Shown: positions 6,709-27,292 of the stretch, in pieces
Position numbering within the stretch: position 1 is the first letter of the stretch
How the letters are laid out: each line of letters begins with the position of its first letter
Origin: an uncultured Clostridia bacterium
Lineage (GTDB): Bacteria; Bacillota; Clostridia; Oscillospirales; Acutalibacteraceae
Assembly: GCA_946184295.1 (NCBI GenBank)
Contig: CAMHEZ010000021.1
Span: forward strand, 1 to 38,580
DNA length: 38,580 nucleotides
Direction of reading: 5' to 3'
Notes under the pieces: generated by a model
The model's input: only the letters and a program-made list of their open reading frames with translations
What the model was told of the DNA's origin: nothing
Databases searched by the model: none
Program-made: the position numbers and the translations under genes

Positions 6709-6714
6709 AAAAAT

Positions 6715-6864
6715 AATTAAGCGAAGCGCGGGAGTCCAGGGGGACTGGTCCTCCTGGCGGGTCAAGGGCAGGGCCCTTGCAGGGGGTGGGACAGCGTCCC
6801 ACAAGGGAGGCTTTAGCCGACCGAGCGCGACGCGCCAAAGCCCAAAACGCACTCAGGCGAATCC
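6715..6864 (+). repeat. Modular hairpin element R1
   Basis: First of five related elements. It opens with AATTAAGCGAAGCGCGGG six bases after the aminotransferase stop. Then come the hairpins CCAGGGGGACTGGTCCTCCTGG, AAGGGCAGGGCCCTT and GTGGGACAGCGTCCCAC, a GGCTTTAGCC module, and the tail CACTCAGGCGAATCC. It lacks a T-run, so it is not a classical terminator. Confidence 0.85.
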
Positions 6865-6900
6865 AATGAAGGATTCCTCCAAGGGGGTACATGAAAACCT

Positions 6901-7797
6901 ATGAACATACAGGCAAACGGAAAAATCAATCTGACACTTGACATCATCGGCAAACGTCCCGACGGCTATCATGACTTGGTGATGGTGATGCAGTCGGTAG
7001 GACTTCACGACGGTGTGCAGGTCAACCTGAACGACAGCGGCAGGATTACGGTGCATTCCTCCTCCGCGCAGCTCAGGGACGACGAAAGCAACATTGCGTG
7101 GAAGGCGGCGAAGGCCTTTTTTGACGCGAGCGGCATTGCCGGTCAGGGCGTGGATATCACGATTGAAAAAAAGATTCCCATGGAAGCGGGCATGGCGGGC
7201 GGCAGTGCGGACGGCGCGGCGGTGATTGTCGCGCTCAACGAGCTGTGCGGCACGGGGTACGACGACGCGAAGCTGTGGGACATCGGCGTGACAGTGGGTG
7301 CGGACGTGCCCTTCTGCATTACCGGCGGCACCATGCTGGCGGAGGGCAAGGGGGAGATTCTTACGCCGCTGCCTTTGCTGGCGGATTTTGTCAAGCCACC
7401 GGTCATTCTGCTCTGCAAGCCCGAGATTGGCGTCTCTACCGGGAAGGCTTACGGCGCGGTGGACAATTGCGCCCCTGAAACGCTCGACCGCCTGCGTCCC
7501 GACACGGAGGCGATGAAACGCGCCCTTGCCGACCGAAATCTGCAAGGCGTGGCGGAGAATCTGGTGAACGTCTTTGAAGAAGTGATGCAGCTTGAAGAAT
7601 GCAGTGAAATCAAGCGCACCATGCTGCATATGGGAGCGCTTGGCGCGTGCATGACCGGCAGCGGCACCACGGTGTTCGGGCTGTTTGACGACAGCGCCGT
7701 GGCCGAAACCTGCGCGGCGTTTCTGGGGAAGACCTTCCCGAAAACGTATCTCACCCACGCGGCGGCCAAGGGCTGCGTGATAGAACGGATTTCATGA
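6901..7797 (+). CDS. ispE: 4-diphosphocytidyl-2-C-methyl-D-erythritol kinase
   Basis: GHMP-family kinase of the non-mevalonate isoprenoid route; it phosphorylates CDP-methylerythritol at the 2-hydroxyl with ATP. The 298 residues match the family length. The N-terminal NGKINLTLDIIGKRPDGYHDL is the typical IspE opening, the glycine-rich ATP loop is PMEAGMAGGSADGAA, and the late GACMTGSGTTVFGLF is the third GHMP motif. ATG 6901 is set by this N-terminus. Its ribosome site AAGGGGG (6881-6887) is rather far, 13 bases away, and an out-of-frame ATG at 6891 lies at better spacing. The gene sits directly behind element R1 and is followed by spoIIR in the same direction. Confidence 0.93.
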   Translation: MNIQANGKINLTLDIIGKRPDGYHDLVMVMQSVGLHDGVQVNLNDSGRITVHSSSAQLRDDESNIAWKAAKAFFDASGIAGQGVDITIEKKIPMEAGMAGGSADGAAVIVALNELCGTGYDDAKLWDIGVTVGADVPFCITGGTMLAEGKGEILTPLPLLADFVKPPVILLCKPEIGVSTGKAYGAVDNCAPETLDRLRPDTEAMKRALADRNLQGVAENLVNVFEEVMQLEECSEIKRTMLHMGALGACMTGSGTTVFGLFDDSAVAETCAAFLGKTFPKTYLTHAAAKGCVIERIS

Positions 7798-7853
7798 TTT
7801 GATTTTTTTCATTAACTGCATAAAGCGTTGGCTCTCTGTCAATCATCAAGGTA

Positions 7854-7868
7854 ATCGGGTGACCCGAT
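7854..7868. promoter_or_regulatory. Perfect palindrome ATCGGG-TGA-CCCGAT before spoIIR
   Basis: A 15-base inverted repeat that ends 22 bases before the spoIIR start codon. It is either an operator or an mRNA hairpin upstream of the ribosome site. No T-run follows it, so termination of ispE is less likely. Confidence 0.4.
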
Positions 7869-7890
7869 GATGAAACGGAGGGCTTTTTTG

Positions 7891-8526
7891 ATGAAACGGA
7901 TCGAGATATCCTTGCTGATGGCGTTGGTATTTGCGGCGGTGCTGAGTATGAGCGCCATGAATGTGGAAAGTGAAGCCATACGCGGGAGCGTGCTGCGGCT
8001 GCACGTGCTGGCCAATTCTGACAGCGAGCGTGACCAGACGCTGAAATTGCGGGTGCGCGACCGCTTGCTGGAAGTGGCAGGGGATATTTACGCCGACGCG
8101 CCCGACCGGGACGAGGCCATTAAGCGTACGCGGGAAAGCCTGCCCTTATTGCAGACAGAGGCAGAGCAGGTACTGCGGGACAACGGCAGCAGCGACAATG
8201 TGACCGTCGCGCTGGAGGATACTTATTTCAACACCCGCACTTACGGCGATATTACCCTTCCGGCGGGGCAATATACCGCGGTACGCGTTATCATCGGCAC
8301 GGGAGAGGGGCATAACTGGTGGTGCGTGATGTTTCCGCCGCTGTGCATCTCGCCGGTGTCGGAGATGCCGGAGGAAGAAGGCACTCAATCGCTTGATCTG
8401 GACGATGTGCTGAACCAGCAGGAGATGGATTTTGTGGAAGGTCCGTCCTATGAACCGCGCTTCAAATGCGTGGAGTGGTATGAAGAAATGAAGAAAGCGG
8501 TCGCGCTGTCGAAGGATAATCATTAA
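7891..8526 (+). CDS. spoIIR: Stage II sporulation protein R
   Basis: SpoIIR is the forespore signal that triggers processing of pro-sigma-E by SpoIIGA in the mother cell. The 211-residue product has an N-terminal hydrophobic export segment (ISLLMALVFAAVLSMSA), then the family core: VLRLHVLANSDSERDQTLKLRVRDRLL and GEGHNWWCVMFPPLC. I chose ATG 7891 over ATG 7867 because ACGGAGGG at 7875-7882 lies 8 bases ahead of it. I looked for a sigma-F promoter and could not convincingly place one. It shows that the organism carries the sporulation programme. Confidence 0.92.
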   Translation: MKRIEISLLMALVFAAVLSMSAMNVESEAIRGSVLRLHVLANSDSERDQTLKLRVRDRLLEVAGDIYADAPDRDEAIKRTRESLPLLQTEAEQVLRDNGSSDNVTVALEDTYFNTRTYGDITLPAGQYTAVRVIIGTGEGHNWWCVMFPPLCISPVSEMPEEEGTQSLDLDDVLNQQEMDFVEGPSYEPRFKCVEWYEEMKKAVALSKDNH

Positions 8527-8533
8527 TTTTTCC

Positions 8534-8562
8534 TTGCATATACGGCGATGATTTGCTATAAT
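8534..8562 (+). promoter_or_regulatory. Extended sigma-A promoter for the ABC-F gene
   Basis: TTGCAT (8534-8539), 17-base spacer, TATAAT (8557-8562), preceded by a TG extension (8554-8555). The leader is short, about 28 nt. Confidence 0.8.
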
Positions 8563-8596
8563 ATCAGGGATTATACGATGAGGAATGATGGTAATT

Positions 8597-10507
8597 ATGA
8601 CGCTGATGAATGCGGCGGGGCTGGAGCTTTCCTTCGGCGCGAGAAATATCTTTGAAGATATCGGCTTTCTGGTGGACGAGCGCGATCACATCGGGCTGGT
8701 GGGGGTCAACGGCTGCGGCAAAACCAGCCTTTTCAAGGTGCTGACAGGTGAATACGCCCCCGACGCCGGCACCGTCAGCAAGAGCAAACTCGCCCGCATG
8801 GGGTATGTCGAGCAGTTCGCCATCAACAGCAGCCGCACCGTGCTGGAAGAATTATTGACCGTCTTTGACGATCTGAAGGACATCGACCGGAGGCTGAGCG
8901 AAATCAACACGCTGCTCTCCCGCAACGAAGGCGATATGGACGCGCTCATCGAGGAACAGCACCGTCTCACCGAGGAATACAACGACCGCGGCGGCCTGAC
9001 CTATCAGAGCCGCGCCCGCTCCGCGCTGCTGGGTCTGGGCTTCACCGAACAGCAGCTCACGCAGGGCGTCTACACGCTCAGCGGCGGTCAGCGCTCCAAA
9101 GTGCAGCTCTGTAAAATGCTGCTCTCCGGCGCGAACCTCCTATTGCTCGACGAGCCGACTAACCATCTGGATATCGCCTCCGTGGAATGGCTGGAGGACT
9201 TCCTGCGCGGCTTTAAGGGCGCGTATATCGTCATCTCCCACGACCGCTACTTCCTCGACCGCGTGACGGGCAAGACCTTTGAGCTGGAAAACAGCAAGCT
9301 CACGGTCTACGGCGGCAACTACAGCTATTACATAGACAAAAAGGCGGAAAACCGCGAAATCGCTATCCGCCACTTTGAAAATACCCAGCGGGAAATCAAG
9401 CGCATCGAGGGCATTGTCGCCCAGCAGCGCCAGTGGAACCGCGAACGGAATATCCGTACCGCTGAGAGCAAGCTCAAGCAGATTGAGCGGTTGAAGAAAA
9501 CCCTTGTGGCGGTAGACCGGCTCCCCGAGGATTTCAGCTTTGATTTTCCCGTCAGGAACGAGAGCGGCAACGACGTACTCAAAGGCAGCGATCTGGCCTT
9601 TGCCTACGGACCGCGGGAAATTTTCCACGACGTCAACATCGACATCAAGAAGGGTGAGCGGGTCTTTCTGCTGGGACCCAACGGCTGCGGCAAGACCACG
9701 CTTTTCAAAATGCTGTGTGCGCGTCTGGGCGGCACCAAGGGTTATGTGGCGCTCGGCTCCAATGTGGATATCGGCTACTACGACCAGACGCAGGAATCGC
9801 TCCACAACGGCAAGACCGTCCTCTATGAGGTGTGGGACGAGTACCCCCGCATGACCGAAACCGAAGTGCGCTCGGGTCTGGCGGCCTTCCTCTTCAAGGG
9901 GGACGACGTGTTCAAATCCATCGGCGACCTGAGCGGCGGCGAACGCGCCCGCGTGGCGATTCTCAAATTGATGCTCTCCCGCTGCAATCTGCTGCTGCTC
10001 GACGAGCCGACCAACCATCTCGACATCATCTCCCGCGAGGCACTCGAAATGGCGCTCACCTGCTATGAAGGCACCATCTTTATGGTGTCCCACGACCGCT
10101 ATTTCATCAACCGTCTGGCCGACCGCATCTATTATATGGAAAACGGCTCCGCCACGGAGTACGTCGGCAATTACGACGATTTCACCGCCTACCGCGCCGC
10201 GCACCCGGCACAAGCGACAGGTACGGCCACGGCTGTGACGGTCAATCCCGAAAAGGAAAAGCGCATAAGCGACTACAAGCAGCGCAAGGAGGAAGCCGCC
10301 GCCGAACGCAAGCGCAAGAAGCAAATCGAGAACGCGGAAAACGACATCGAGCGCTTGGAAAACGAGCTGTCAGAACTGAACGAACGCATGACGCGCCCGG
10401 AATACAGCAGCAATTACGAAAAAATGATGGAGATGACCCATCAGGCCGCCGATATGCAGCAGCAGATCGACGACTTGTACTCGTTGCTCGACGAGCTCTA
10501 CGACTGA
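8597..10507 (+). CDS. ABC-F family ATPase (ribosome-associated type)
   Basis: Soluble protein of 636 residues with two fused ABC ATPase domains and no membrane segments, as in ABC-F translation factors and ribosome-protection proteins. Domain 1 has Walker A GVNGCGKTS (about residues 36-44), signature LSGGQRSKVQL and Walker B LLLLDEPTNHLD. Domain 2 has GPNGCGKTT, LSGGERARVAI and again LLLLDEPTNHLD. The charged interdomain linker between them (about residues 240-310) is the P-site tRNA interaction motif region. A C-terminal coiled-coil tail rich in Glu and Lys follows. ATG 8597 gives the usual start (MTLMNAAGLELSFG); ATG 8585 and 8588 are less likely because they abut the AGGA. It is probably housekeeping rather than resistance. 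mtaB follows within 24 bases. Confidence 0.9.
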   Translation: MTLMNAAGLELSFGARNIFEDIGFLVDERDHIGLVGVNGCGKTSLFKVLTGEYAPDAGTVSKSKLARMGYVEQFAINSSRTVLEELLTVFDDLKDIDRRLSEINTLLSRNEGDMDALIEEQHRLTEEYNDRGGLTYQSRARSALLGLGFTEQQLTQGVYTLSGGQRSKVQLCKMLLSGANLLLLDEPTNHLDIASVEWLEDFLRGFKGAYIVISHDRYFLDRVTGKTFELENSKLTVYGGNYSYYIDKKAENREIAIRHFENTQREIKRIEGIVAQQRQWNRERNIRTAESKLKQIERLKKTLVAVDRLPEDFSFDFPVRNESGNDVLKGSDLAFAYGPREIFHDVNIDIKKGERVFLLGPNGCGKTTLFKMLCARLGGTKGYVALGSNVDIGYYDQTQESLHNGKTVLYEVWDEYPRMTETEVRSGLAAFLFKGDDVFKSIGDLSGGERARVAILKLMLSRCNLLLLDEPTNHLDIISREALEMALTCYEGTIFMVSHDRYFINRLADRIYYMENGSATEYVGNYDDFTAYRAAHPAQATGTATAVTVNPEKEKRISDYKQRKEEAAAERKRKKQIENAENDIERLENELSELNERMTRPEYSSNYEKMMEMTHQAADMQQQIDDLYSLLDELYD

Positions 10508-10530
10508 TACGAAAAAAGGTGGTTTTTTAC

Positions 10531-11805
10531 TTGAAAGCAGGCATCGCAACCCTTGGCTGCAAGGTCAATCAATATGAATCCCAGGTCATGATGGACAATC
10601 TCTGCGCCCACGGCTATGAACCGGTCAAAGAGGGCGAGCGGGCGGACGTGTTCATCGTCAACAGCTGCACCGTCACCGGCACCAGCGACAAAAAGGTGCG
10701 CCAGACCGTGCGCCGCGCCCGCCGCGAACATCCCGAAGCCGTCCTCATTCTCACCGGCTGTATGCCGCAGGCCTTCCCCGAAGAATGTGAGGCCATCGAC
10801 GAGGCGGATATCATTATCGGCAACGCCAACCGGGGAGCGCTGCTGTCATACATAGAGACATATCTCCGCACCCATCAGCGCATCATCGACATTCAGCCCC
10901 ACGGCAAGGCCTACGGCGCGGAATCCTCCGTCAGCGGCATGAACGAGCGCACACGCGCCTACATCAAAATTGAAGACGGCTGCAACCGTTTCTGCACCTA
11001 CTGCATTATCCCCTATGCCCGCGGACGGGTTCGCAGCCGTTCCATCGAGGAAATCCGGGAGGAATCCCGCCGCATCGGGCAGCATTACCGCGAGGTCGTG
11101 CTGGTGGGCATCAACCTGTCGGCCTACGGCAGCGACATCGGCACGGACCTGTTGGAAGCGGTCAATGCGGCAGCCTCCGCCGACGGCATCGAACGCGTGC
11201 GTCTCGGCTCACTGGAACCCGATCTGACCTCCGATGAATTGATTGACGGTCTTGCCAAACAGCCCAAATTCTGCCCCCAGTTCCATCTGGCGATACAGAG
11301 CGGCTGCGACGCCACCCTCAAACGCATGAACCGCCATTACGATACGGCACAGTTCCGCCATGTCTGCGAAAAAATCCGCGCCACCTTTGACAATCCCTCC
11401 GTCACCACCGACATCATGGTGGGCTTCGCCGGCGAGACGGAAGAGGAATTTGCCGCGTCGCTGGCCTTCGCACAGGAAATCGGCTTTGCACGCGCGCATG
11501 TCTTCGCCTATTCCCGCCGCAAGGGCACGCGTGCTGACAGTTTTCCTCATCAGGTGGACGAATCGGTCAAGCACGCCCGCAGCGAACGCATGATTGCCGC
11601 TACTAACGCGGCGGCGGCCGCCTTCCTGCAATCGCAGGTCGGCAGACAAGTGACCATTCTCGCTGAGCGGGAAGTCCAACCGGGCATCTATGAGGGCTAC
11701 ACCGAAAACTACACGCCCGCCAGAATCCACGGCGAAAACCTCAACGGAAAACTCATTCCCGCCACGGTCACAAGCGTGGGCGACGGTTTCGTCTGGTGCG
11801 ATTAA
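10531..11805 (+). CDS. mtaB: tRNA t6A37 methylthiotransferase MtaB
   Basis: Radical-SAM methylthiotransferase that converts t6A37 to ms2t6A in tRNAs reading ANN codons. The 424 residues fit the family. The N-terminal cluster ligands are Cys10 (in GCKVNQYES, typical of MtaB rather than MiaB), Cys46 (NSCTVTGT) and Cys77 (LTGCMP). The radical-SAM triad is Cys151, Cys155 and Cys158 (CNRFCTYC), followed by IIPYARGRVRSR. A C-terminal TRAM-like region ends the protein. I chose TTG 10531 because AAAGGTGG (10515-10522) lies 8 bases ahead; GTG 10519 would overlap that site. It is cotranscribed with the ABC-F gene. Its stop TAA overlaps the first bases of element R2. Confidence 0.92.
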   Translation: MKAGIATLGCKVNQYESQVMMDNLCAHGYEPVKEGERADVFIVNSCTVTGTSDKKVRQTVRRARREHPEAVLILTGCMPQAFPEECEAIDEADIIIGNANRGALLSYIETYLRTHQRIIDIQPHGKAYGAESSVSGMNERTRAYIKIEDGCNRFCTYCIIPYARGRVRSRSIEEIREESRRIGQHYREVVLVGINLSAYGSDIGTDLLEAVNAAASADGIERVRLGSLEPDLTSDELIDGLAKQPKFCPQFHLAIQSGCDATLKRMNRHYDTAQFRHVCEKIRATFDNPSVTTDIMVGFAGETEEEFAASLAFAQEIGFARAHVFAYSRRKGTRADSFPHQVDESVKHARSERMIAATNAAAAAFLQSQVGRQVTILAEREVQPGIYEGYTENYTPARIHGENLNGKLIPATVTSVGDGFVWCD

Positions 11806-11977
11806 TTAAGCGAGCGTATGCGAGCGCGGGGTGCAGGGGGCAAGCTCCCTGCCGGGTCCAGCTTTCACGAAAGCGGGGGCAGTCGCCCTTGCGGGGGCCG
11901 GGGAAGAGCCCCGGGAGCAGGCCAACGGCCTGCGAGCAAGACGCGCCCGAATAATCAACGCAGTCAGGCAAATCCGG
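11804..11977 (+). repeat. Modular hairpin element R2
   Basis: It begins AATTAAGCGAGCG inside the mtaB stop codon. Modules are a GCAGGGGGCAAGCTCCCTGC hairpin, an extra CAGCTTTCACGAAAGCGG hairpin, CCGGGGAAGAGCCCCGG, and CAGGCCAACGGCCTG, then the tail AAGACGCGCCC...CAACGCAGTCAGG and AATCCGG. Two modules differ from R1 yet stay paired, so this is a mosaic copy. Confidence 0.85.
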
Positions 11978-12014
11978 ACAACAGCGAAATGGCAAAAAAA
12001 TTATCAAAATATGG

Positions 12015-12043
12015 TTGTCATTTTGAATAGTTTATGTTATAAT
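12015..12043 (+). promoter_or_regulatory. Sigma-A promoter for the PH-domain gene
   Basis: TTGTCA (12015-12020), 17-base spacer, TATAAT (12038-12043), with a TG extension at 12035-12036. It lies just past element R2. Confidence 0.85.
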
Positions 12044-12110
12044 GAAACCGATCATTTTGGTCTGTTCGTCATTGCCTGACCAAATCCACATAATAGGAGG
12101 TTTATCCACT

Positions 12111-12518
12111 ATGGCAAAGAAAAACGTTGAACAGGAAACCGTTCTCATCAAGGAGCGCAAGAGACTGGGATTCTTCGGTCTTCCCTTCTCCTTCACTACC
12201 TTCGCCATCACTGACAAGAAGCTGATCTACAAGAAGGGTCTTCTCAGCAGCACCGAAGACGAAATTCTGCTCTATCGCGTGCAGGATATCACCGTCAAAC
12301 GCACACTCGGTCAGAAGCTCTTCGGCCTCGGCACGCTGGAAATTGATTCGCAGGATAAGACCTGCCCCCACCTCATCATCAAGAACATCAAGCACGTCAA
12401 GGAGTTCCGCTCCATTCTCTCTGAGCAGGTCGAAAAGGAAAAGACCCGCCGCAACTTCCGCAGCACCGAGATTCTCGACGGTGACAACGACCCCGGCTTC
12501 CACGGCGGTATGCTGTAA
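12111..12518 (+). CDS. Small bacterial PH-domain (YdbT/DUF304-like) protein
   Basis: A 135-residue soluble protein with a single bacterial pleckstrin-homology-like fold: FAITDKKLIYKKGLLSSTEDEILLYRVQDITVKRTLGQKLFGLGTLEIDS is the typical strand order, with the basic VQDI...R turn. ATG 12111 follows a strong AATAGGAGG. There is no membrane helix, unlike many members of the family. The C-terminal 35 residues are charged and then glycine-rich (FHGGML). It is a single-gene unit bounded by a strong promoter and a terminator. A function beyond binding of partners or membranes cannot be assigned. Confidence 0.75.
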   Translation: MAKKNVEQETVLIKERKRLGFFGLPFSFTTFAITDKKLIYKKGLLSSTEDEILLYRVQDITVKRTLGQKLFGLGTLEIDSQDKTCPHLIIKNIKHVKEFRSILSEQVEKEKTRRNFRSTEILDGDNDPGFHGGML

Positions 12519-12540
12519 TCCTTTTCCCCATCGTTTTTCT

Positions 12541-12609
12541 CATCAACTAACAAAAGCCGTTCGCCGGGTGCGTATTTCACGCAGGAGGCGGGCGGCTTTT
12601 TGGTTGATG
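12541..12609 (+). terminator. Intrinsic terminator after the PH-domain gene
   Basis: Stem AAAGCCGTTCGCC / GGCGGGCGGCTTT followed by a short T-run, with an outer arm pair CATCAAC (12541-12547) and GTTGATG (12603-12609). Confidence 0.75.
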
Positions 12610-12680
12610 AATTTTTTTTGGAAAGTGTGTAACGAATCCCCTCTGAAAAAGACTAATATAGCGGAAGGAGATGAAATGCC

Positions 12681-13181
12681 ATGGACTTTGAAGAAATCTA
12701 CAACCTGTACAAGCAGGACGTGTTTCGCTACCTCTGCGGCCTCACGGGTGCGCATGACGAGGCCGAGGAACTGCTGGCGGAAACCTTCTTCCGGGCGTTC
12801 ATGGGATTTCAGGCGTTCCGGGGCGACAGCAGCGTGAAAACGTGGCTGTTCTCCATCGCCAAACACGTCTTTTTCCAGCACTTAAAGCAGCGCAAACGGG
12901 ATATCCCCACCGAGGACACGCTGCTCTATCAACTGCGCGGACAGTATACCGCGGATAGCGATATGGAGGACGGCGCGGCGCTGGCCGCACTGGTCAGTCG
13001 GCTGCTCGCGCAGAAGGACGAGCGCAGCCGTACGGTCTTCCGCATGCGGCTGGACGGCTACTCCTTCCGCGAAATCGGCGAAACGGTGGGGATTTCCGAA
13101 AGCTCCGCCCGCGTGCTGGCGCATCGGGTGAGACTGTATCTGCAAAAAGAATTGAAAAAGGAGGGATACGGGCATGAATGA
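12681..13181 (+). CDS. ECF-type RNA polymerase sigma factor
   Basis: A 166-residue group 4 sigma factor. Region 2 is in residues about 5-75 (YKQDVFRYLCGLTGAHDEAEELLAETF, then FRGDSSVKTWLFSIAKHVF), and region 4 is in about 100-160 (RTVFRMRLDGYSFREIGETVGISESSARVLAHRVRLYLQKELK). ATG 12681 is preceded by GGAAGGAG. A TGTAAC at 12628-12633 could be a -35 of the AAC type used by such factors, but I could not pair it with a -10. The next gene overlaps by 8 bases and encodes its probable anti-sigma factor. Confidence 0.88.
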   Translation: MDFEEIYNLYKQDVFRYLCGLTGAHDEAEELLAETFFRAFMGFQAFRGDSSVKTWLFSIAKHVFFQHLKQRKRDIPTEDTLLYQLRGQYTADSDMEDGAALAALVSRLLAQKDERSRTVFRMRLDGYSFREIGETVGISESSARVLAHRVRLYLQKELKKEGYGHE

Positions 13182-13728
13182 ACGTATCACGGAAAAGGAA
13201 GTTGTCACCTGTGCCATCGTTCGGGATTTGGTGCCGCTGGTGGCCGACGGCGTGGCCTCGGAGGAAAGTGAGGCGGCGGTATTGTCGCATATCGCCCATT
13301 GCGAAGAATGCGCGGCGCTGCTGCATACCTCAGAGCGGCCGGAGAATCCCGCCGCTGCTCCCACGCCACAGAACGACCAAAAAATCATGGCCTATATCCG
13401 GCGGCGGGCAGTGTTTTTCCTCGCCTTTGTCACACTGCTGGGCGCGGCGGCGGGCGTCATGATGACAGCTACCGCGCTGCAATTCCAGAATTTCCTCATC
13501 ATGCCGCTGGTCGGCGCGTTGGCCTATGCCTGCTTCAAAGGAAAGGGCCTGCTGGCCTGTCCGGCGGTATTTGCCATGACTGCCCTGCATGCCGCTGTCA
13601 GTTGTATGGTGACAGGGTACTGGTCGGATTTTGCCGGATTTCTCATTTACGGCGTGATTTACACGGTGTTGGTGCTGGTGGGCCATATCATCGGTGCGCT
13701 GCTGACCTACGCGTTCCGCAAGGACTGA
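13174..13728 (+). CDS. Membrane anti-sigma factor with zinc-finger N-terminus
   Basis: Protein of 184 residues that overlaps the sigma gene by 8 bases, the usual pairing. The cytosolic N-terminus carries an HxxxCxxC zinc motif (LSHIAHCEECAALL, about residues 41-51) as in ZAS/zf-HC2 anti-sigma domains, preceded by the VRDLVPLVADGVASEES helix. A Pro/Ala linker follows, then four to five hydrophobic helices (AVFFLAFVTLLGAAAGVMM to LVLVGHIIGALLTYAF). In such systems the finger domain holds the sigma factor until a signal changes the membrane partner. The signal is unknown here. Confidence 0.82.
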   Translation: MNERITEKEVVTCAIVRDLVPLVADGVASEESEAAVLSHIAHCEECAALLHTSERPENPAAAPTPQNDQKIMAYIRRRAVFFLAFVTLLGAAAGVMMTATALQFQNFLIMPLVGALAYACFKGKGLLACPAVFAMTALHAAVSCMVTGYWSDFAGFLIYGVIYTVLVLVGHIIGALLTYAFRKD

Positions 13729-13750
13729 CATTCACAGGGAGGAAACACAG

Positions 13751-14452
13751 ATGAAGAAAACCATATTAAAAATCGCAGCAGTAGTGACTGCGCTGGCGCT
13801 CATCGGCGGCGTGCTGTTTTTCTACAACGCCTTCTGCGGCAACATTTTTTCGGCGCTGTACGCAAGACACCGCATCACGGCGTACATCTCGGAAACCTAC
13901 CCCGACAGCGCCTATCAGATTTCCAAGGCGAACTATGATTTCAAGACAGGGGGCTATTCCTGCCGCATCACCGACCCGGACAGCGCTGACAAATCCTTCT
14001 ATGCCACCTATTCCTACGGCGGCCGCATCAATGATTCCTACGAAGCGGCAATGAACAAGGAAAACACGCTGATGCGCATTGAACAGGATTTCCGGGACGC
14101 GGTGGACCCGCTGATTGACAGCGAGCTGAAAGAGGATGAAAACGGGCGTGAGTTCGGGTTTGCCACCATTTTTTTCGGCGACGAAGATATCGACCGCAGC
14201 CGCGTCGAATACGACATGACCGCCGACCCCAAAAACATGCCGGTGGAAACCTGCGTGCTGCTTTCGCTGGACACTGATGAGACGCAGTCCTTGCAGCGGG
14301 TGCAGCAGCTCGCCGCAAAGCTGCAATCCCTCGGCTACCGCATTGATTTCTATGAGTACTACGACGGAAACGGCCATGACTACCGGCCGATTCCCACGCA
14401 GCAGCTGCTGGCGGCGCAAAGTCCCGCTGAACTGACGGATTTCCGGGAATAG
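13751..14452 (+). CDS. YfjL-like membrane-anchored protein of unknown function
   Basis: A 233-residue protein with a single N-terminal hydrophobic anchor (ILKIAAVVTALALIGGVLFFYNAF), then a mixed extracellular domain. The stretch CGNIFSALYARHRITAYISETYP resembles the start of YfjL-like proteins. Near the C-terminus an alpha/beta piece (LQRVQQLAAKLQSLGYRIDFYEYY) recalls a DUF-type fold. GGGAGGAAA precedes ATG 13751, 22 bases after the anti-sigma gene, so it looks like the third gene of the sigma operon and may be its effector or signal partner. I cannot assign an activity. Confidence 0.7.
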   Translation: MKKTILKIAAVVTALALIGGVLFFYNAFCGNIFSALYARHRITAYISETYPDSAYQISKANYDFKTGGYSCRITDPDSADKSFYATYSYGGRINDSYEAAMNKENTLMRIEQDFRDAVDPLIDSELKEDENGREFGFATIFFGDEDIDRSRVEYDMTADPKNMPVETCVLLSLDTDETQSLQRVQQLAAKLQSLGYRIDFYEYYDGNGHDYRPIPTQQLLAAQSPAELTDFRE

Positions 14453-14460
14453 ATTGTATG

Positions 14461-14604
14461 CGCCTGACTGCATTGGTTGTCTCGGCGCGTCTTGCTCGCA
14501 GGCCGTTGGCCTGCTCCCGGGGCGCTGCCCCGGCCCCTGCAAGGGCTCTGCCCTTGACCCGCCAGGAGGACCAGTCCCCCTGGACTCCCGCGCTTCGCTT
14601 AATT
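14461..14604 (-). repeat. Modular hairpin element R3 (reverse orientation)
   Basis: Read on the minus strand it starts AATTAAGCGAAGCGCGGG, 15 bases after the stop of the minus-strand lipoprotein gene. It has the CCAGGGGGACTGGTCCTCCTGG and AAGGGCAGAGCCCTT hairpins of R1, but the CCGGGGCAGCGCCCCGG and CAGGCCAACGGCCTG hairpins of R2. It ends CAGTCAGGCG. Confidence 0.85.
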
Positions 14605-14619
14605 ACGCTTCGCTTTGCT

Positions 14620-16188
14620 TTATCGGAACACTTCCCGGAACATCACCAGATTTTCATAACCGATATCGTCATAGGCAAGATAGGACAGTGCGTTACGCAA
14701 GGTATAGATATTATGCGTTTCGTCGAGGTATCCGTCCGCCAGCTTTTCCAGCTCCTCATCGGAGATGTCAAACGAAATATGCAGCTGCTCCGCTTCCACG
14801 CCCGCGCCGTTGAGGCGGGGCCGTACCTTTTGTACCAGCTTTCTCGCCGCCTGAACGTCGTCCATCATGGGTTCGTCATCGTCATCGATCGTCGTCAGAT
14901 TGTGTACCATGACCCTGGTCAGCAGACTGTCCATCTGCTCCGGTCTGACGAAGAGCGCCGACGGCTCCACGGGATTGCCGTCCCGGTCAAAGCAATACGC
15001 GGCGTCATACACCCGATACAGGCTCGCGGGATTGTCGTTTTCCGAAAAACCGTAGACCATATCACTCCGGGAAAAGCCAAAATAATCGGGGCATTTGGTA
15101 GCAATAATGCCGGTGTAGGTGGAAATATAGAGCGTCCATTTCTCATCGCCGAACAGGTCCGACGTCTCCCGGCAGACGTCATCAACAGAAAACGGCAAAT
15201 GTTCCAATTCAAAAGTAAGCGTTTCCGCCTGCTTCACCACCGCCTCCGGCGTTCCCTCCTGATAGGAGTATGTACCGGAGAAATGCACGTTGGATTGGAT
15301 GGGAATCTCGCGCTGCTCCCGTTTTTCCGCGTAGCCCCACATCAGGCGGCAGTGTTCTGTGTTGAAATGATAAATCGGCTCGTCCGCCTTGCGATACGGC
15401 AGGTACGCGTCTCCCAGCTTGCGCGAATCAATGAAGATATGAATGGGATATGTCGTATAGACGAAGGGAGTGTCAAAATCCAGTATCAGTATGAGATCCC
15501 CCTCGCTCGAAACATAAAACTTCTGCTCGGGCGTGATGCTTTGGAAAGGCGCGGTGAGCGCGATTTCGTCGCTGTAATACTCGTCATTGTTTTCGACGCC
15601 GCTGTCATAGCCGTTGGCCATCAGATACGCGTCAACCTGCCGGTTGATCAGCTCGATGTAATCGGTACCGGGTGCGAACAGGTCTTGGAGCGTCAGCTCG
15701 TCCCCCGTGGTCAGGTCAAAAGTCAGCGGCACCTCATAGCTGTAGCTCAGGTCGTCATCGGGATTGTCGTTTTCATAATATGTGTAGCAACTGGCATATA
15801 CGCTCAGGATATTGTTGCTGTTGAACTCGTTGTACATATACACCAGATGCTGTTTGAGTTCGTCCTGATGCTGCCGGATTTTGACGGCAATGCCGCGATA
15901 GGGCGGCACATAGGTTCCGCTGTGCATCTCATCGGCCACCGCCTGAATGCGGCTGTTGATTTTGTCTTCTATCGCCTGATCGCGCAGCCCGTCAATAGCG
16001 AGAAAATCCGAAGCGATATTGCCGTTTGCCAGCTCTTTGTTCTCGAGGGTGAGATTGTTGTCGATGACAATCCCCACGTCAAAGAGCCGCTTCTGCCTGT
16101 CCACCGTGCCATGCGAACACCCCGCCGCGCTCAGCAGCAGGCCGCACGCCGTCAGCAGGCAGACACATTTACATACGATTCGCCACAT
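14620..16188 (-). CDS. Secreted lipoprotein with DUF3298-like domain
   Basis: A 522-residue protein exported by a lipoprotein signal (CVCLLTACGLLLSAAGC, lipobox LSAAGC). The segment VPLTFDLTTGDELTLQDLFAPGTDYIELINRQVDAYL is typical of DUF3298-type domains found in RsiV- and PdaC-like extracytoplasmic proteins. A second half with Tyr/Asp-rich sequence was not recognised. I chose ATG 16188, with GCGGAGGA 9-16 bases ahead; a longer version to 16239 has no such site. The gene overlaps the end of the PstS-like gene by 20 bases, so they are translated together and are likely partners at the cell surface. Element R3 begins 15 bases behind its stop. Confidence 0.75.
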   Translation of the reverse strand: MWRIVCKCVCLLTACGLLLSAAGCSHGTVDRQKRLFDVGIVIDNNLTLENKELANGNIASDFLAIDGLRDQAIEDKINSRIQAVADEMHSGTYVPPYRGIAVKIRQHQDELKQHLVYMYNEFNSNNILSVYASCYTYYENDNPDDDLSYSYEVPLTFDLTTGDELTLQDLFAPGTDYIELINRQVDAYLMANGYDSGVENNDEYYSDEIALTAPFQSITPEQKFYVSSEGDLILILDFDTPFVYTTYPIHIFIDSRKLGDAYLPYRKADEPIYHFNTEHCRLMWGYAEKREQREIPIQSNVHFSGTYSYQEGTPEAVVKQAETLTFELEHLPFSVDDVCRETSDLFGDEKWTLYISTYTGIIATKCPDYFGFSRSDMVYGFSENDNPASLYRVYDAAYCFDRDGNPVEPSALFVRPEQMDSLLTRVMVHNLTTIDDDDEPMMDDVQAARKLVQKVRPRLNGAGVEAEQLHISFDISDEELEKLADGYLDETHNIYTLRNALSYLAYDDIGYENLVMFREVFR

Positions 16189-17095
16189 AGCCGTTTTCCT
16201 CCGCAAGCTTTGCGCCTTCCTCACTCTGCACCCACGCAATGATCTTTCTCACCACGCTGTCTTCGGGCGTGTCGTCCCGAATGACAATCTGCGATTGATT
16301 AATCATGGGATAGGTGCCGTCCGAAATCGTCTCGTCCGAAGGCACCACCCCTTCGATGCCGAGCAGCTTGATCTGATCGGTGTAGTGCATACTGGACACA
16401 TAGTAGTAGTAGGAATAGCCGATCGCGCCTCTGGCATTGTCGTAATGCGCCACCGCGTCGATGATTTCGCCCATCTCGCCGATAGCGAGTTCCTTGGGTG
16501 CTTCCATCACGTCTTTCTTGGGCAGCAGGAAGCGGTACAGTCCCGTCTGACTGCCGGAGCCCTCGTTTCTCTGATAGGGAATGATGTCAAGATCTTCGCC
16601 CCCTACCTGCTTCCAGTTGGTAATTTCCCCCTTATAGATGCCCTGGAGCTGCTCCTTGGTCAGACTTTTGACGGGGTTGTCCTTGTTGACAAAGAACACG
16701 AAGCCGCCGTTGAGAATGGTGTGATACTCAAACGTCACGCCGGCTTTCTCGGCGGTTTTTACCTGCTCGTCCGACGGCATGGCGCAGAAGATCATATCCA
16801 CGGTGCCGTCCGTCAGATTCTGGTAGGCGGCAGGCGTGTTGTTGCAAAGCACCAGCGTGCGCGCCTCCTCGATGTCCACCCCCAGCAGCCGCGCCGTCAT
16901 GGCCTCATAATACGGCGCGAGCGCGAGCGCGCCGTCGATAATCGGCAGTTCCTCCTTGGTGAGCGTCAGCGATGGCGTGTCCGACGCGCTGACGTCGGTA
17001 CCGCCGTTCTGTTTGCCGCCCTGACAGGCGGTCACGGACAGCGCCATCAGCAGCGACAGCGCCAGACAAATCAGTTGATTGGCTTGTTTTCTCAT
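16169..17095 (-). CDS. PstS-like phosphate-binding lipoprotein, without transporter genes
   Basis: Substrate-binding protein of the phosphate ABC uptake family, 308 residues. It has a lipoprotein signal (LICLALSLLMALSVTAC) and the family core LTKEQLQGIYKGEITNWKQVGG, then RNEGSGSQTG, where phosphate ligands lie, and GAIGYSYYYYV. The membrane and ATPase genes (pstC, pstA, pstB) are absent. Instead the next gene, overlapping by 20 bases, is a DUF3298-type lipoprotein. Several lipid-anchored PstS relatives serve sensing or matrix roles rather than transport, so the role here is open. ATG 17095 follows AAAAGGGTG. Confidence 0.82.
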   Translation of the reverse strand: MRKQANQLICLALSLLMALSVTACQGGKQNGGTDVSASDTPSLTLTKEELPIIDGALALAPYYEAMTARLLGVDIEEARTLVLCNNTPAAYQNLTDGTVDMIFCAMPSDEQVKTAEKAGVTFEYHTILNGGFVFFVNKDNPVKSLTKEQLQGIYKGEITNWKQVGGEDLDIIPYQRNEGSGSQTGLYRFLLPKKDVMEAPKELAIGEMGEIIDAVAHYDNARGAIGYSYYYYVSSMHYTDQIKLLGIEGVVPSDETISDGTYPMINQSQIVIRDDTPEDSVVRKIIAWVQSEEGAKLAEENGYVANRM

Positions 17096-17151
17096 AACAA
17101 ATCACCCTTTTAAAAATCACGAATTGTAAAACCGTCAGGCATTACACTTAT

Positions 17152-17179
17152 ATTCTACACCAAATTTCCCTGTTTGCAA
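17152..17179 (-). promoter_or_regulatory. Probable sigma-A promoter for the PstS-like gene
   Basis: On the minus strand, TTGCAA (17174-17179), 16-base spacer, TAGAAT (17152-17157). The leader is about 50 nt. Confidence 0.55.
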
Positions 17180-17237
17180 TGATCGTTTTCCACAAAAAAC
17201 AGCGTTCATATTTGGCGGTAAGGAAAGTTTACAATCT

Positions 17238-17312
17238 TGACAATTCATTCGGCGATATCGTGCTATAATGAAAACAACATGACAATTCATGGCAAAGGGA
17301 GCTGACAATCAT
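17238..17312 (+). promoter_or_regulatory. Extended -10 promoter with three repeats of TGACAATTCAT
   Basis: TG-C-TATAAT at 17261-17269. The only TTGACA (17237-17242) is 21 bases upstream, too far for a normal spacer. Exact TGACAATTCAT copies lie at 17238-17248 and 17280-17290, 42 bases apart, and a shortened copy TGACAATCAT lies at 17303-17312, over the start codon of the next gene. Together they bracket the -10 element and look like regulator sites. Confidence 0.5.
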
Positions 17313-18087
17313 GAGGTATCACAGAGCCAATCCGGCGATTTACTATATTCTCGGCGCGGCAGCGGCGGGCTTTTTGGTCATCTACACGACCGTGGCCATC
17401 ACAGGAAAAATATCCACCTTTATGCGTGCCCGCAAAGCCGCCGAAGCCGCGAAAACAGCTGTCGTTTCCTCCGCCGTGGAGAGTGAGGAGGAAGAGGAAA
17501 CCGAACCTTGGATGCTGACGCTGGTCAACAAAGACAACAAGCTGCCCGACGGCTACACCCGCAAGCTGGATTTTGTCAAGCTGCGGGGCGACGTCTGGGT
17601 AGACGAGCGTATGTATCCCCAATTGCAACAGATGATGGACGACTGCCGCGCGGCGGGCTACCATCCCATCGTGATTTCCGGCTACCGCACCATCGCGTAT
17701 CAGGAGAAGCTCTTCAACACCGAGGTGCGCAAGTACCTGCGGGAAGGCTATTCGCAGGAAGGGGCGGTCATCGAGGCCGAAAAATTGCAGGCTCACCCCG
17801 GCTACAGTGAGCATCATCTCGCGCTGGCGGTGGATATCCTGCCCGAAAGCAACCAGTACCCCACGCAGGAGCAGGAGAAATCCGACGAAATCAAATGGCT
17901 GATGGCCAATTGTGACAAATACGGCTTCATTCTGCGCTATCCAAAGGATAAGGAATCGGTTACGGGCATCTTTTATGAGCCGTGGCACTACCGGTATGTC
18001 GGCACCAAGGCCGCCAAGTACATCACTAAGCACAATCTGTGTCTGGAGGAATACGTACAGATGCAGGCGCAGGAATCCAGCAACTAG
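17311..18087 (+). CDS. VanY-type D-alanyl-D-alanine carboxypeptidase (peptidase M15B)
   Basis: Zinc peptidase of 258 residues that trims the terminal D-Ala of peptidoglycan peptides. One N-terminal membrane helix (residues about 9-29) anchors it outside the cell. The catalytic domain has the family order: SGYRT, then His168-x6-Asp175 in SEHHLALAVDI for zinc, and Glu223/His226 in EPWHYRYVG for catalysis and the third zinc ligand. ATG 17311 follows AAAGGGAG with 9 bases between. The gene has its own extended -10 promoter region with repeated sites. Its TAG stop abuts element R4. No VanA/VanH resistance genes are near, so a cell-wall maintenance role is likelier than glycopeptide resistance. Confidence 0.9.
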   Translation: MRYHRANPAIYYILGAAAAGFLVIYTTVAITGKISTFMRARKAAEAAKTAVVSSAVESEEEEETEPWMLTLVNKDNKLPDGYTRKLDFVKLRGDVWVDERMYPQLQQMMDDCRAAGYHPIVISGYRTIAYQEKLFNTEVRKYLREGYSQEGAVIEAEKLQAHPGYSEHHLALAVDILPESNQYPTQEQEKSDEIKWLMANCDKYGFILRYPKDKESVTGIFYEPWHYRYVGTKAAKYITKHNLCLEEYVQMQAQESSN

Positions 18088-18231
18088 CGAAGCGCAATTA
18101 AGCGAGCGTATGCGAGCGCGGGGTCCAGGGGGCAATCGCCCTTGCAGGGCGTGGGACAGCGTCCCACGAGGGAGGCTTTAGCCGACCGAGCAAGACGCGC
18201 CAAGACCAACAACGCAGTCAGGCGAATCCGG
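18087..18231 (+). repeat. Modular hairpin element R4 (internally deleted)
   Basis: It starts at the last base of the carboxypeptidase stop codon with GCGAAGCGC and then AATTAAGCGAGCG. The first hairpin has lost its right arm: GTCCAGGGGGCAATCGCCC runs straight into TTGCAGGGCGTGGGACAG, so two modules have fused. The GTGGGACAGCGTCCCAC and GGCTTTAGCC modules match R1, and the tail is AACGCAGTCAGGCGAATCCGG, split here only by description. Confidence 0.83.
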
Positions 18232-18241
18232 AAAAAAGTCC

Positions 18242-19402
18242 CTAGCCGAAAAGCATCTCCCGTTCCTTGGCGATGGAGCGCAGAAAGGTGACGTAGCGCG
18301 TGACGCGCACGCCGTTTTCGGTTTCGTTGACAGTGCGGGTATCCGACACAATGCCACGCGTATCGGCGGCCTGAATGCGTCTGTCCAGCAGCGCTTCGGC
18401 CTGCGCGGCGCATTCGTCGGTGGAAAAGGTCTTTTCGGTGTAGCAAAGCTCGTGCCATTCCTCGCGGCGCAGCACGAAGGGCATCTCAAAATCCAGCAGC
18501 GTCAGGGGGATTTCCTCATAGGTGCGGCGGTAATTGCCCTTGGGCAGCCCGTAAAACAGCGGTATCTCCCAGCCGAACGCCGTCAGACGGTTGACCAGCA
18601 CAACGCGCCCGGTCGGCTCCTGCACGGTCTGACGGAAACTCACGTTTTCTGAAAAGGTCTCGTCCACCATCGCGATGACTTCCCCGCTGGCGTGAACCGT
18701 GCGGATTTTGTCCTCCTGCCCCGCGAAAAGGCCGCTCACCAGCGTGTCGCCGGGATAAACCACATCCCCGGGCTGTACCATAGGCGTACCCTGGGGCGCG
18801 ATGATTTCCACGATTTCTCCGCCTTCCGCGGCGATGAGATCACAGGGCACATCGTCCGCCACCGTATGTTTTGAGGCTGTCGAGGGACTGAAATACACCT
18901 GCGCGTTACTCCCCATGCGGGATATCTTGATAAAATCAAAGTCCCGCAGCTGTTCCTCCAGCTCCAGCTCCAGCATGGGGCCGTCAATGCGGGAACTCAG
19001 CATGCCCGGTCGAAGCCCCGCGGCATACACCGCGTCGGAAGCGCTGACCGCCAGCGTTTCCGGCAGATTGACGAAATCCACGAACCACGTGAACAGCGAC
19101 AGATACCACAGCATGAAGCAAAACAAACCGAACCCCGCGACAAATCCCACGCGCCTGCCGTAATGCCGCAAGACATACGGCAGGCCGTATTTGTCCGTGA
19201 CGGCTAAGGTCACGCCCGCCTTGTCGGCCGCGTCGGCCAGTGTATCAAAGTCCGCCGCGTGAACAAAGGCAAACATACGGCCGTTCTGGCAGTGAATGTT
19301 GAAAAGCCTCAATCGCCGCCGGTTGGCGATATTCAGAAAGCGCTCGGACATACCTGCGCCGTCTATGATTTCAAACCGGTATATTTCTCTCAGATGTATC
19401 AT
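18242..19402 (-). CDS. yqfD: Sporulation protein YqfD
   Basis: Membrane protein of 386 residues in the YqfD family, needed for efficient sporulation in Bacillus; its molecular function is not settled. Residues 1-80 are cytosolic, with the typical FLNIANRRRLRLFNI opening. One main hydrophobic segment follows (VGFVAGFGLFCFMLWYLSLFTWFVDFV), then a long extracytoplasmic part with a VQPGDVVYPGDTLVSG hairpin-like motif. ATG 19402 has GGGAGAAAAG upstream. It lies 48 bases behind yqfC in the usual yqfC-yqfD order. Confidence 0.92.
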   Translation of the reverse strand: MIHLREIYRFEIIDGAGMSERFLNIANRRRLRLFNIHCQNGRMFAFVHAADFDTLADAADKAGVTLAVTDKYGLPYVLRHYGRRVGFVAGFGLFCFMLWYLSLFTWFVDFVNLPETLAVSASDAVYAAGLRPGMLSSRIDGPMLELELEEQLRDFDFIKISRMGSNAQVYFSPSTASKHTVADDVPCDLIAAEGGEIVEIIAPQGTPMVQPGDVVYPGDTLVSGLFAGQEDKIRTVHASGEVIAMVDETFSENVSFRQTVQEPTGRVVLVNRLTAFGWEIPLFYGLPKGNYRRTYEEIPLTLLDFEMPFVLRREEWHELCYTEKTFSTDECAAQAEALLDRRIQAADTRGIVSDTRTVNETENGVRVTRYVTFLRSIAKEREMLFG

Positions 19403-19450
19403 TTCTTTTCTCCCTTTTTTCCGTATTCGCCCGACCCTGTCGCGCTTGCT

Positions 19451-19741
19451 TTACAGAAACCTGACAGCTTCCAGTCTCCCGCAAATGACGAGCGCGTCTT
19501 CCATCATGCGGCAGATACAAAGACAGCTCCCCTCGATGAGGATATTGCGGGAATAGGTGGCGACAATCAGCCGTTCCTCCGTATATTCACAGACATTCCG
19601 TACGCCCTCGATGAGCAGCCCCTTCCCCACCTCGCAGGTAATACGGGTCTCGCCGCGTGAAAAATCGGGCACCCGGTTGAGCATGTCGCTGAGAAAGCGC
19701 TCCGAGCGGTCATCGAGAGCGTTCTTTTGATTTCTTTTCAA
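19451..19741 (-). CDS. yqfC: Sporulation protein YqfC (YabP/YqfC family)
   Basis: A 96-residue cytosolic member of the YabP/YqfC family, expressed in the mother cell in Bacillus. The strand pattern ITCEVGKGLLIEGVRNVCEYTEERLIVATYSRNILIEGSCL is characteristic. The start is TTG 19741, 9 bases after GGAG; the nearer ATG reads in another frame. It forms an operon with yqfD. The intergenic region to ylbJ serves both directions, but I could not place a convincing sigma-E site on this side. Confidence 0.85.
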   Translation of the reverse strand: MKRNQKNALDDRSERFLSDMLNRVPDFSRGETRITCEVGKGLLIEGVRNVCEYTEERLIVATYSRNILIEGSCLCICRMMEDALVICGRLEAVRFL

Positions 19742-19785
19742 TTGCCATCACTCCATATAACCATGTAAACATCTCACTGCTGTCA

Positions 19786-19813
19786 TCATATGCGGCGGAT
19801 GTACGCATAATTC
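19786..19813 (+). promoter_or_regulatory. Weak candidate sigma-E promoter for ylbJ
   Basis: TCATATG (19786-19792), 13-base gap, CATAATTC (19806-19813), compared from memory with the sigma-E pattern kmATATT-N14-CATACAmT. Only the first half of the -10 fits. It is listed because ylbJ is a mother-cell gene in Bacillus. Confidence 0.25.
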
Positions 19814-19853
19814 CTGCCGCACGCCGCATAAATTAGGGGCGGACGGTGGTTTG

Positions 19854-20984
19854 ATGAAACGGAGAACAGACAGGTACAAAAGCATTGCGGCGGCTTTGAT
19901 TTGTGCGGCCGCGTGCGCGGCGGTGCTGCTGCACACGGAGCAATCGGCAGCGGCGGTGCGCCAAGGGTTGCAATTATGCGGGGTCAGCGTGCTGCCCTCG
20001 CTTTTTCCCATGATGTTTCTCGCGCAGTATTTCGTCAAAAGCGGCGGCGCGGCAGAAGCGGGGCACTTGCTGGACGCGCCGACCCGCGTACTGTTCGGCC
20101 TGCCCGGCGTGTGCGGCGCGGTGATTCTCACGGGGCTGGTCGGAGGCTATCCCGCCGGTGCGGCTGCGGCTGAGGCGCTTGTCAACAGCGGCGCGATTTC
20201 CCGCCGGCAGGGACAGCGGCTCGCCAACATCGCCTTTTGCTCCGGGCCGGGCTTCACGGTTGGCATGGTGGGGGCGCAGCTTTATCAAAATAAAATGATT
20301 GGCCTGTTGATATTGACAGCGCAGGCCCTTTCCTGTATAATAATAGGAATCGCAAGTAAAATTCTGGCCGGGCATTTTGACGACTGTTCGTCACTTTCCG
20401 GGGGCAGAAACCAATCAAGCGACGGGCGGGAAGCTTCCCGCAACGCTTTTGTAGAGGCGGCAAGTGCGGCATCGTCTGCGGTGCTGGCTATGTGCGGCTT
20501 CATCGTTCTGTTTCGGGTCAACAACGCCCTACTGGGGATTATGCGTGTCAATGAAATCCCGGCCAGACTGCTTGCTCCCGTCGGCCTTGCGGAATGGGGA
20601 GAAATGTTGCTGCCCTGCGTGACCGAAGTGACAGGCGGCAGCATTCTCTCGGTGAGGCTGGGACTGCCCTTCACGGCGTTTGTCGTGGGCTTCGGCGGGC
20701 TGTCGGTGCATTTTCAGAATTTCGCCCTCTGCCGCACGATAAACCTGAACAAAGCCCGCTACATCGCGACCCGTATCGCGCAGGGCGGCATTTGTGCTGT
20801 GCTGGTCGAGCTGGCGCTGCGATTGCCTTATTTTGCGGAGATGTGCGCGCCGGCGGCGGTGGTAATCGGCGGGGAAATTCCCGCGCAGTTTTCGGACGTA
20901 TCGGGAAGCTTCGGCGCATTGATGCTGGTGATGTGCCTGATGAGCGTGATCTGTCTGCCGCAGTGTCAAGCTGAAAACAATTAA
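19854..20984 (+). CDS. ylbJ: Sporulation integral membrane protein YlbJ
   Basis: Polytopic membrane protein of 376 residues in the YlbJ family, which is needed for spore development. Typical motifs are SVLPSLFPMMFLAQYF in the second helix, LVGGYPAGAAAA, ANIAFCSGPGF and PCVTEVTGG with nearby Gly-rich helices; at least seven hydrophobic segments can be drawn. I chose ATG 19854 over TTG 19851; the ribosome site is weak. The protein's last codon AAT and its stop TAA are part of the AATTAAGCG opening of element R5, so the C-terminus (ENN) may be defined by that element. Confidence 0.9.
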   Translation: MKRRTDRYKSIAAALICAAACAAVLLHTEQSAAAVRQGLQLCGVSVLPSLFPMMFLAQYFVKSGGAAEAGHLLDAPTRVLFGLPGVCGAVILTGLVGGYPAGAAAAEALVNSGAISRRQGQRLANIAFCSGPGFTVGMVGAQLYQNKMIGLLILTAQALSCIIIGIASKILAGHFDDCSSLSGGRNQSSDGREASRNAFVEAASAASSAVLAMCGFIVLFRVNNALLGIMRVNEIPARLLAPVGLAEWGEMLLPCVTEVTGGSILSVRLGLPFTAFVVGFGGLSVHFQNFALCRTINLNKARYIATRIAQGGICAVLVELALRLPYFAEMCAPAAVVIGGEIPAQFSDVSGSFGALMLVMCLMSVICLPQCQAENN

Positions 20985-21127
20985 GCGAAGCGCGGGTTTC
21001 CAAAGGGACTGGTCCCTTTGGCAGGTCAAGGGCAGCGCCCTTGCAGGGCGTGGGACAGCGTCCCACAAGGCAAGCGGAGCTTGCCAGGCAAGACGCGCCC
21101 AATCATCAGATAAAGTCAGGCGAATCC
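20979..21127 (+). repeat. Modular hairpin element R5, supplying the ylbJ stop codon
   Basis: AATTAAGCGAAGCGCGGG starts at 20979, and its TAA is the ylbJ stop. The hairpins are CCAAAGGGACTGGTCCCTTTGG (changed bases in both arms relative to R1), AAGGGCAGCGCCCTT, GTGGGACAGCGTCCCAC and GCAAGCGGAGCTTGC, followed by AAGACGCGCCC and the tail AAAGTCAGGCGAATCC. Confidence 0.87.
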
Positions 21128-27270: not shown

Positions 27271-27292
27271 CTTCATTCCAAATAATAAACAT

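Follow-up and report, generated by a model that had tools for sequence, protein, structure and literature searches.

What are the chains of hairpins that stand at gene ends in the 38,580 nucleotides analyzed here (the window), and why do they face the same way as the genes in front of them? The initial annotation had described 5 modular hairpin elements at the following places, and the description was borne out by profile search, with each of the 5 matching at E 5.1e-24 or lower, and by alignment.

R1, positions 6715 to 6864, forward strand: between an aminotransferase gene (stop codon TGA at 6706-6708) and a GHMP-kinase gene (ispE-like, 6901).
R1 leader TGAAAAAAT, positions 6706 to 6714, forward strand: precedes the opening of R1 and, by eye, resembles the leader TTTTGAAAAAT of full-ended copies.
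R2, positions 11804 to 11975, forward strand: behind an mtaB-type gene, whose stop codon TAA (11803-11805) overlaps the first two letters of the R2 opening.
R3, positions 14456 to 14604, reverse strand: follows the minus-strand gene at 14620-16188 (lipoprotein-like start, by eye) in a convergent gap.
R4, positions 18096 to 18229, forward strand: follows a VanY-type gene (stop codon TAG at 18085-18087) in a convergent gap.
R5, positions 20979 to 21127, forward strand: its letters 4-6 are the stop codon TAA of the upstream gene (20982-20984).

The profile search listed no sixth element in the window at E up to 10, and no Rfam family matched the window at gathering score. All 5 elements share in the alignment the opening AATTAAGCG and a GC-rich middle, followed by (A)AGACGCGCC (variant GCGACGCGCC in R1) and the tail GGCGAATCC (variants GGCAAATCC in R2 and GGCGCATAC in R3); R4 is without the first hairpin pair present in R1. 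Counted from the end of the stop codon, the openings lie at 6 (R1), -2 (R2), 15 (R3), 8 (R4), and -6 (R5) bases, negative values denoting overlap, and the distance between the tail and the opposite gene's stop is 3 bases for R3 and 12 for R4. The claim that the strand follows the gene in 5 of 5 cases held for the tandem copies R1, R2, and R5 (3/3) and not for R3 and R4, which are uninformative because in a convergent gap either direction follows some gene.

Several other features were observed in the window. A short tail-like stretch, GCAAGCGCGACAGGGTCGGGCGAATAC, was identified by eye, below profile detection, between 2 minus-strand genes (19423-19449, reverse strand), and at the matching site the sister species G017 has a full tail-to-tail pair of elements. 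Short direct repeats around CAAGACAATCAAT were found in a long noncoding stretch (26831-27282), and repeated units approximately 220-270 bases apart in the gene at the window end (36583-38459). A spore-forming Bacillota lineage is suggested by matches to YqfD, which exceeded its cut-off, and to YlbJ, which fell short of its own.

We searched for the element in the genome to which the window belongs (G000) and in relatives, including G003, G006, G007, G012, and G017, which are sister species of the same genus; individual loci fetched from these searches carry L-numbers. At least 150 copies were identified in G000 with a covariance model, by which all 150 scored candidates were matched, out of 1052 candidates, and a DNA search with R1, in which 40 of the 210 candidates were scored, gave at least 42 matches. 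The string AATTAAGCGNRGCG occurs 52 times in G000 and its reversed control not once. The family was identified in all 17 genomes of the same genus and in none of the 42 genomes of other genera, and the 18-letter opening gave 7 single matches in unrelated records among GTDB genomes, a set from which the own genome was left out. No published description of this element family was found in the open-licence papers searched. Within G000, element density tracks the third-position GC of contig pieces (Spearman 0.79, 21 pieces), and the first 40 kb each of contigs C6, C9, C13, and C15, which were picked after the count, had 0 elements in 160 kb versus approximately 16 expected; C9 does have one copy beyond 40 kb.

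The core is about 120-190 bases long, the covariance model comprising 154 positions and four or more stems, and its plan consists of an A-rich leader, a AATTAAGCG-type head, several interchangeable GC-rich hairpins, and a AAGACGCGCC..GGCGAATCC tail. Head first, G exceeded C in 124 of 124 copies from four species, after two matches shorter than 60 bases were dropped. Hairpin modules are combined almost freely: 72 near-complete G000 copies displayed 68 combinations of four modules, the sorting being by custom string rules that left 18, 5, 23, and 11 of the 72 in the "other" class. Neighboring modules were weakly linked, with 10 and 15 of 1000 shuffles reaching the observed value, and the other four module pairs were unlinked (154 to 915 of 1000). 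Short-tract gene conversion may have swapped hairpin modules between copies.

The predicted stems were paired in 96.7% of cells across 38 of the 82 G000 copies in the sample used for placement (below), and two-sided stem changes were found in 107 cells versus 30.9 in shuffles and in 13 stem pairs versus 9.7, values to be read with the structure having been derived from the very alignment on which it was scored, and with palindromic DNA able to yield an equal pattern. Such maintenance of stems is what would be seen if the elements served the upstream gene as functional 3' structures, a message stabilizer or translation brake as reported for E. coli REPs, and had spread by copying as useful. Palindromes can, however, stay symmetric as DNA, so pair changes are no proof of RNA function; one of five measures, further pair types, was without excess (27 vs. 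26.5 in shuffles), and the R1 RNA folded no better than shuffles on the gene's strand (z -1.12), compared with z -2.70 on the other strand. With the site comparisons given below, we regard a working 3' structure as unlikely to account for the family.

The ends of the elements point to a mobile origin. Copies in sister species have AGGCGATTGTAAAAGT at one boundary and a near-copy of it, inverted, at the other; the head form of AGGCGATTGTAAAAGT occurs 74 times in 11 of 18 genomes, with 0 occurrences of the reversed control. Among sister-species loci, 25 end pairs with AGGCGATTGTAAAAGT ends form terminal inverted repeats, some of these pairs being orthologous. A direct repeat of 7-13 bp was identified at the edges of 9 of the 25, with offsets of up to 3 bases allowed and without a shuffled control, including an 11-bp target repeat in four (L179, L183, L200, and L089), and a target repeat of at least 7 bases was absent in the other 16. 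End-to-end copies mostly measure 248-388 bases, and two composites 538 and 719. Copies in G000 instead have the ends GGAAATCAATTTTG, of which AAATCAATTTTG occurs 28 times and its reversed control 0 times; both ends were found in three G000 copies, with no target repeat visible by eye, and single ends in others. Two end types on one element core is unusual.

We identified a 1172-bp insertion sequence in G012 and G007, at two of 30 PF01609 loci, one end of which is GGAAATCAATTTTG and the other of which agrees with it in 13 of 14 letters; the G012 copy is flanked by a 10-bp target repeat. A third was found in G017, where the transposase match is split in two pieces. The transposase belongs to the ISAs1 family (285.8 bits vs. 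a cut-off of 70), with PF01609 and PF13808 matches. ISAs1 matches were present in 7 of 18 genomes, 6 of them over the cut-off, and G000 itself gave no match. No transposase with AGGCGATTGTAAAAGT ends was identified among 41 loci (30 PF01609 and 11 ISAs1). The REP-associated Y1 transposase that the initial annotation had proposed to look for was not found in the own genome, with 0 PF01797 (RAYT) matches in G000 at 94% completeness and positive controls in 5 of 14.

Other arrangements of ends were also observed. Tail-to-tail pairs of elements with heads outward occur at L195, L204, L088, L092, and G000 C3:11086-11411, and at L195 and L204 a single set of paired terminal repeats encloses both elements. 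Inside or beside G017 elements (L195, L095, and L097) lies a different repeat, about CTATAGCAATCC..GGATTGCTATAG, which may be another small mobile element. At L183, a 388-base piece combines the element ends and the 11-bp target repeat with a different, GTGTGGAGT-rich interior.

Comparison of sites between species covered four of the five window copies, R1, R2, R4, and R5, and for each of them identified an empty site in a sister species. The R1 site was examined at 17 of 18 fetched loci (the remaining one was not an orthologue), namely its own and those of 16 relatives, one of which was cut by a contig end. It was empty in 13 of 15 informative relatives, the next gene following within about 70 bases with no element between, and filled in the same direction in G017, by an element, and in G003, by a head-like stretch running up to the contig end. 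The R2 site was empty in G007, the R4 site in G006, and the R5 site in G006 and G017. Three G000 sites also carry the element in G006 in a common place and direction, and a further G006 copy has, by eye, a shortened element as its G000 counterpart. Sharing at three sites is consistent with working 3' structures; against that reading, most compared sites are empty in relatives, and the copies at the three are no more alike (similarity 0.72, 0.65, and 0.67) than random cross pairs (mean 0.668, sd 0.057).

The initial suggestion of a mobile repeat is thus supported by empty sister-species sites, by inverted repeats paired at the termini and accompanied by target repeats, and by the matching ends of an insertion sequence. 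The elements are short and transposase-free, have terminal inverted repeats and target repeats, and have an autonomous relative for the GGAAATCAATTTTG ends. We put at roughly three in four the probability that they are a genus-specific MITE family with a modular core, under a joint account of placement and exchange in which an ISAs1-family transposase, or a lost relative, would move the element in trans.

Placement was analyzed in 837,577 bases of G000 (36% of the genome), comprising the first 40 kb of contigs C1-C20 (two slightly shorter) and the window, in which a custom script called 728 genes with 86% coding. Among 82 element matches, 55 lie in tandem gaps, 15 in convergent gaps, 7 in divergent gaps, and 5 at stretch ends; gaps of at least 100 bases, element-bearing ones included, numbered 229 tandem, 73 divergent, and 39 convergent. 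No gene in the sample spans a copy. Lack of any preference for stop codons or for the gene's strand among copies genome-wide had been set beforehand as the refuting result, and in this sample the preference was found: the strand agrees with that of the gene in 49 of 55 tandem copies (binomial p 1.8e-9), and none of 10000 uniform placements matched the closeness of heads to stop codons. The exceptions are the 6 tandem copies that face the opposite way and the 7 copies, out of 77 with both neighbors known, that lie between divergent genes. In convergent gaps, 14 of 15 copies have their head closer to a stop codon than their tail. The 64 tandem or convergent copies on a gene's strand divide into 29 whose core is overlapped by the stop codon, 30 in which the stop codon precedes the core by 0-36 bases, and 5 in which it lies further away. 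Translation of the upstream gene extends into the leader of some copies, which then encodes the C-terminal end of the protein (..KAKRN* at C18:6341; ..AVRN* in G006).

The same rule was found in sister species, in stretches of 220 kb (G017), 154 kb (G007), and 370 kb (G006), all of the G017 and G007 stretches and 9 of the 20 from G006 having been chosen for holding a match. Tandem copies follow the gene's strand in 10 of 12 cases in G017, 5 of 5 in G007, and 12 of 13 in G006 (27/30 together, and 76/85 over four species), and the head is nearer a stop in all 4 convergent copies, which are all from G006 (18/19 over two species); where species share related sites, the copies there are not fully independent observations. 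Uniform placement reached the observed closeness in 0 of 10000 trials for G006 and 13 of 10000 for G017, and the five G007 copies do not differ from uniform (1096 of 10000). Among the 74 head-end matches, 30 were fetched as loci, 26 of which have a same-strand gene upstream of the head and 4 of which lie between divergent genes. With both neighbors present, 20 of 20 tandem loci follow the gene's strand, a single further locus being convergent, and in 20 of the 26 the head lies from -20 to +27 of the stop. The proposal that the repeat targets gene ends is supported as a statement on placement in G000 and the sister species, a placement that either aiming or survival could produce. Copies lying head first behind or over stop codons would become part of the 3' untranslated region, where their hairpins may act more like REP-type barriers than like terminators.

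Terminators of transcription, whether for the gene's own strand or for antisense transcripts, could also occupy a position behind stop codons, and the A-rich leader does form a T-rich run on the opposite strand. On that strand, terminator-like sites were identified in 7 of 20 G006 copies versus 25 of 309 G006 gene ends without an element, and in G000 the corresponding numbers are 10 of 70 versus 62 of 638. On the gene's strand, they were found in 8 of 70 G000 copies versus 66 of 638 element-free G000 gene ends, no excess, and in 0 of 35 copies from three sister species, so that a role as general intrinsic terminators was rejected. Terminator prediction in the window listed no such site inside R1-R5, and no T-run follows their stems, in agreement with the annotated lack of T-runs. 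Considering both strands, we find it very improbable that the elements are terminators.

Two other candidate causes of the direction were considered. Replication strand is an unlikely cause, as direction switches with the gene within short stretches (the window and C12). The supply of stop codons in three frames was rejected as not general: every frame is closed by the leader TTTTGAAAAATAATTAA, and a different one of its stops is used at R1, at R2, and at R5, but all frames are closed within 40 nt in only 6 of 71 G000 copies read head first versus 2 of 71 read tail first, and within 60 nt in 8 versus 9 of 25 end-to-end copies.

The head-first rule could still be produced by selection only, with the MITE inserting anywhere and in any direction and copies not head first behind a stop being lost. 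Head-first RNA is G- and A-rich, in keeping with the excess of G over C in every copy counted, and tail-first RNA would be C- and T-rich and could invite Rho termination, operon polarity, or more rapid breakdown of the upstream mRNA. Where the junction is tight, as at R1 and R5, just the bases between stop and ribosome-binding site are left free, and the gaps that hold the few tail-first tandem copies are larger (median 214 vs. 135.5), a difference that is not significant (p 0.083). The head is nearer the stop in nearly all convergent copies, however, where no downstream gene can suffer, and three copies with no hairpin chain also lie head first within 10 bases of a stop, namely L183 with its different interior, L202, which consists of nothing but the ends in about 50 bases, and the short derivative L188. 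We give this selective account somewhat less than an even chance. Polarity at insertion is slightly favored over selection against the reverse direction, because the rule also holds in convergent gaps, in intact-ended copies, and in the few chain-less copies. A stricter version, in which the transposase and ends pick a spot just behind the stop codon and insert in the sense direction, is doubtful, as is its possible basis in recognition of a feature existing solely where translation or transcription ends; with such built-in polarity, at least 150 insertions would burden the host little.

Repeats behind genes are common in bacteria, and whether they aim for gene ends or merely survive there is an old question. 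For REPs, what Liang et al. 2015 reportedly found is taken from the account in PMC12306157. In the available text of the sources, REP and BIME sequences are high-copy palindromes behind genes, often no more than 20 bases from the 3' end of the upstream gene, with mosaic arrangement and proposed effects on message and translation; REPs measure 20-40 bp, carry GTAG or CGTC tags, and in part have a Y1 transposase (PMC3733652, PMC12306157). The elements described here share the high copy number, the palindromes near gene 3' ends, and the mosaic build, but unlike REPs and REPINs they have 130-190-bp cores with several stems, and PF01797 is absent in the own genome. SPRITE of Streptococcus pneumoniae also lies near gene 3' ends and is described as one stem followed by a U-rich tract (PMC3049150, available text), whereas the present elements have no T-run behind their stems. 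A relative by ends is the ISAs1-family insertion sequence of G012, G007, and G017, whose ends are those of full G000 copies; unlike the elements, it encodes a 373-aa transposase, and about 14-16 terminal letters are held in common (by eye).

The BOX element of S. pneumoniae, by the available text of PMC3049150, is a modular repeat thought to be a MITE with ends resembling an insertion sequence; it supplies the stop codon in 36 genes, is over-represented in convergent gaps, draws on few module types, whose order is fixed, with repeats of boxB and a varying module number, and lies on the leading strand in 60.8% of cases, near the coding bias. In architecture, the elements resemble BOX in being modular and of about equal size, in belonging to a Bacillota species, and in having insertion-sequence-like ends and supplying stop codons. 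They differ from it in following the gene in most tandem copies and in carrying different hairpins in near-free combination. No direction rule of comparable strength appears in the portions of the BOX and REP accounts compared (PMC3049150, PMC3733652, PMC12306157). With a direction this consistent over four species, defined ends, and a candidate transposase, the question of aiming or surviving becomes a simple transposition assay, and the near-free combination of hairpin modules naturally documents very short exchanges among repeats at dispersed sites. The kind of element, a MITE of BOX-like build, is already known; its head-first polarity and near-free module exchange are unusual.
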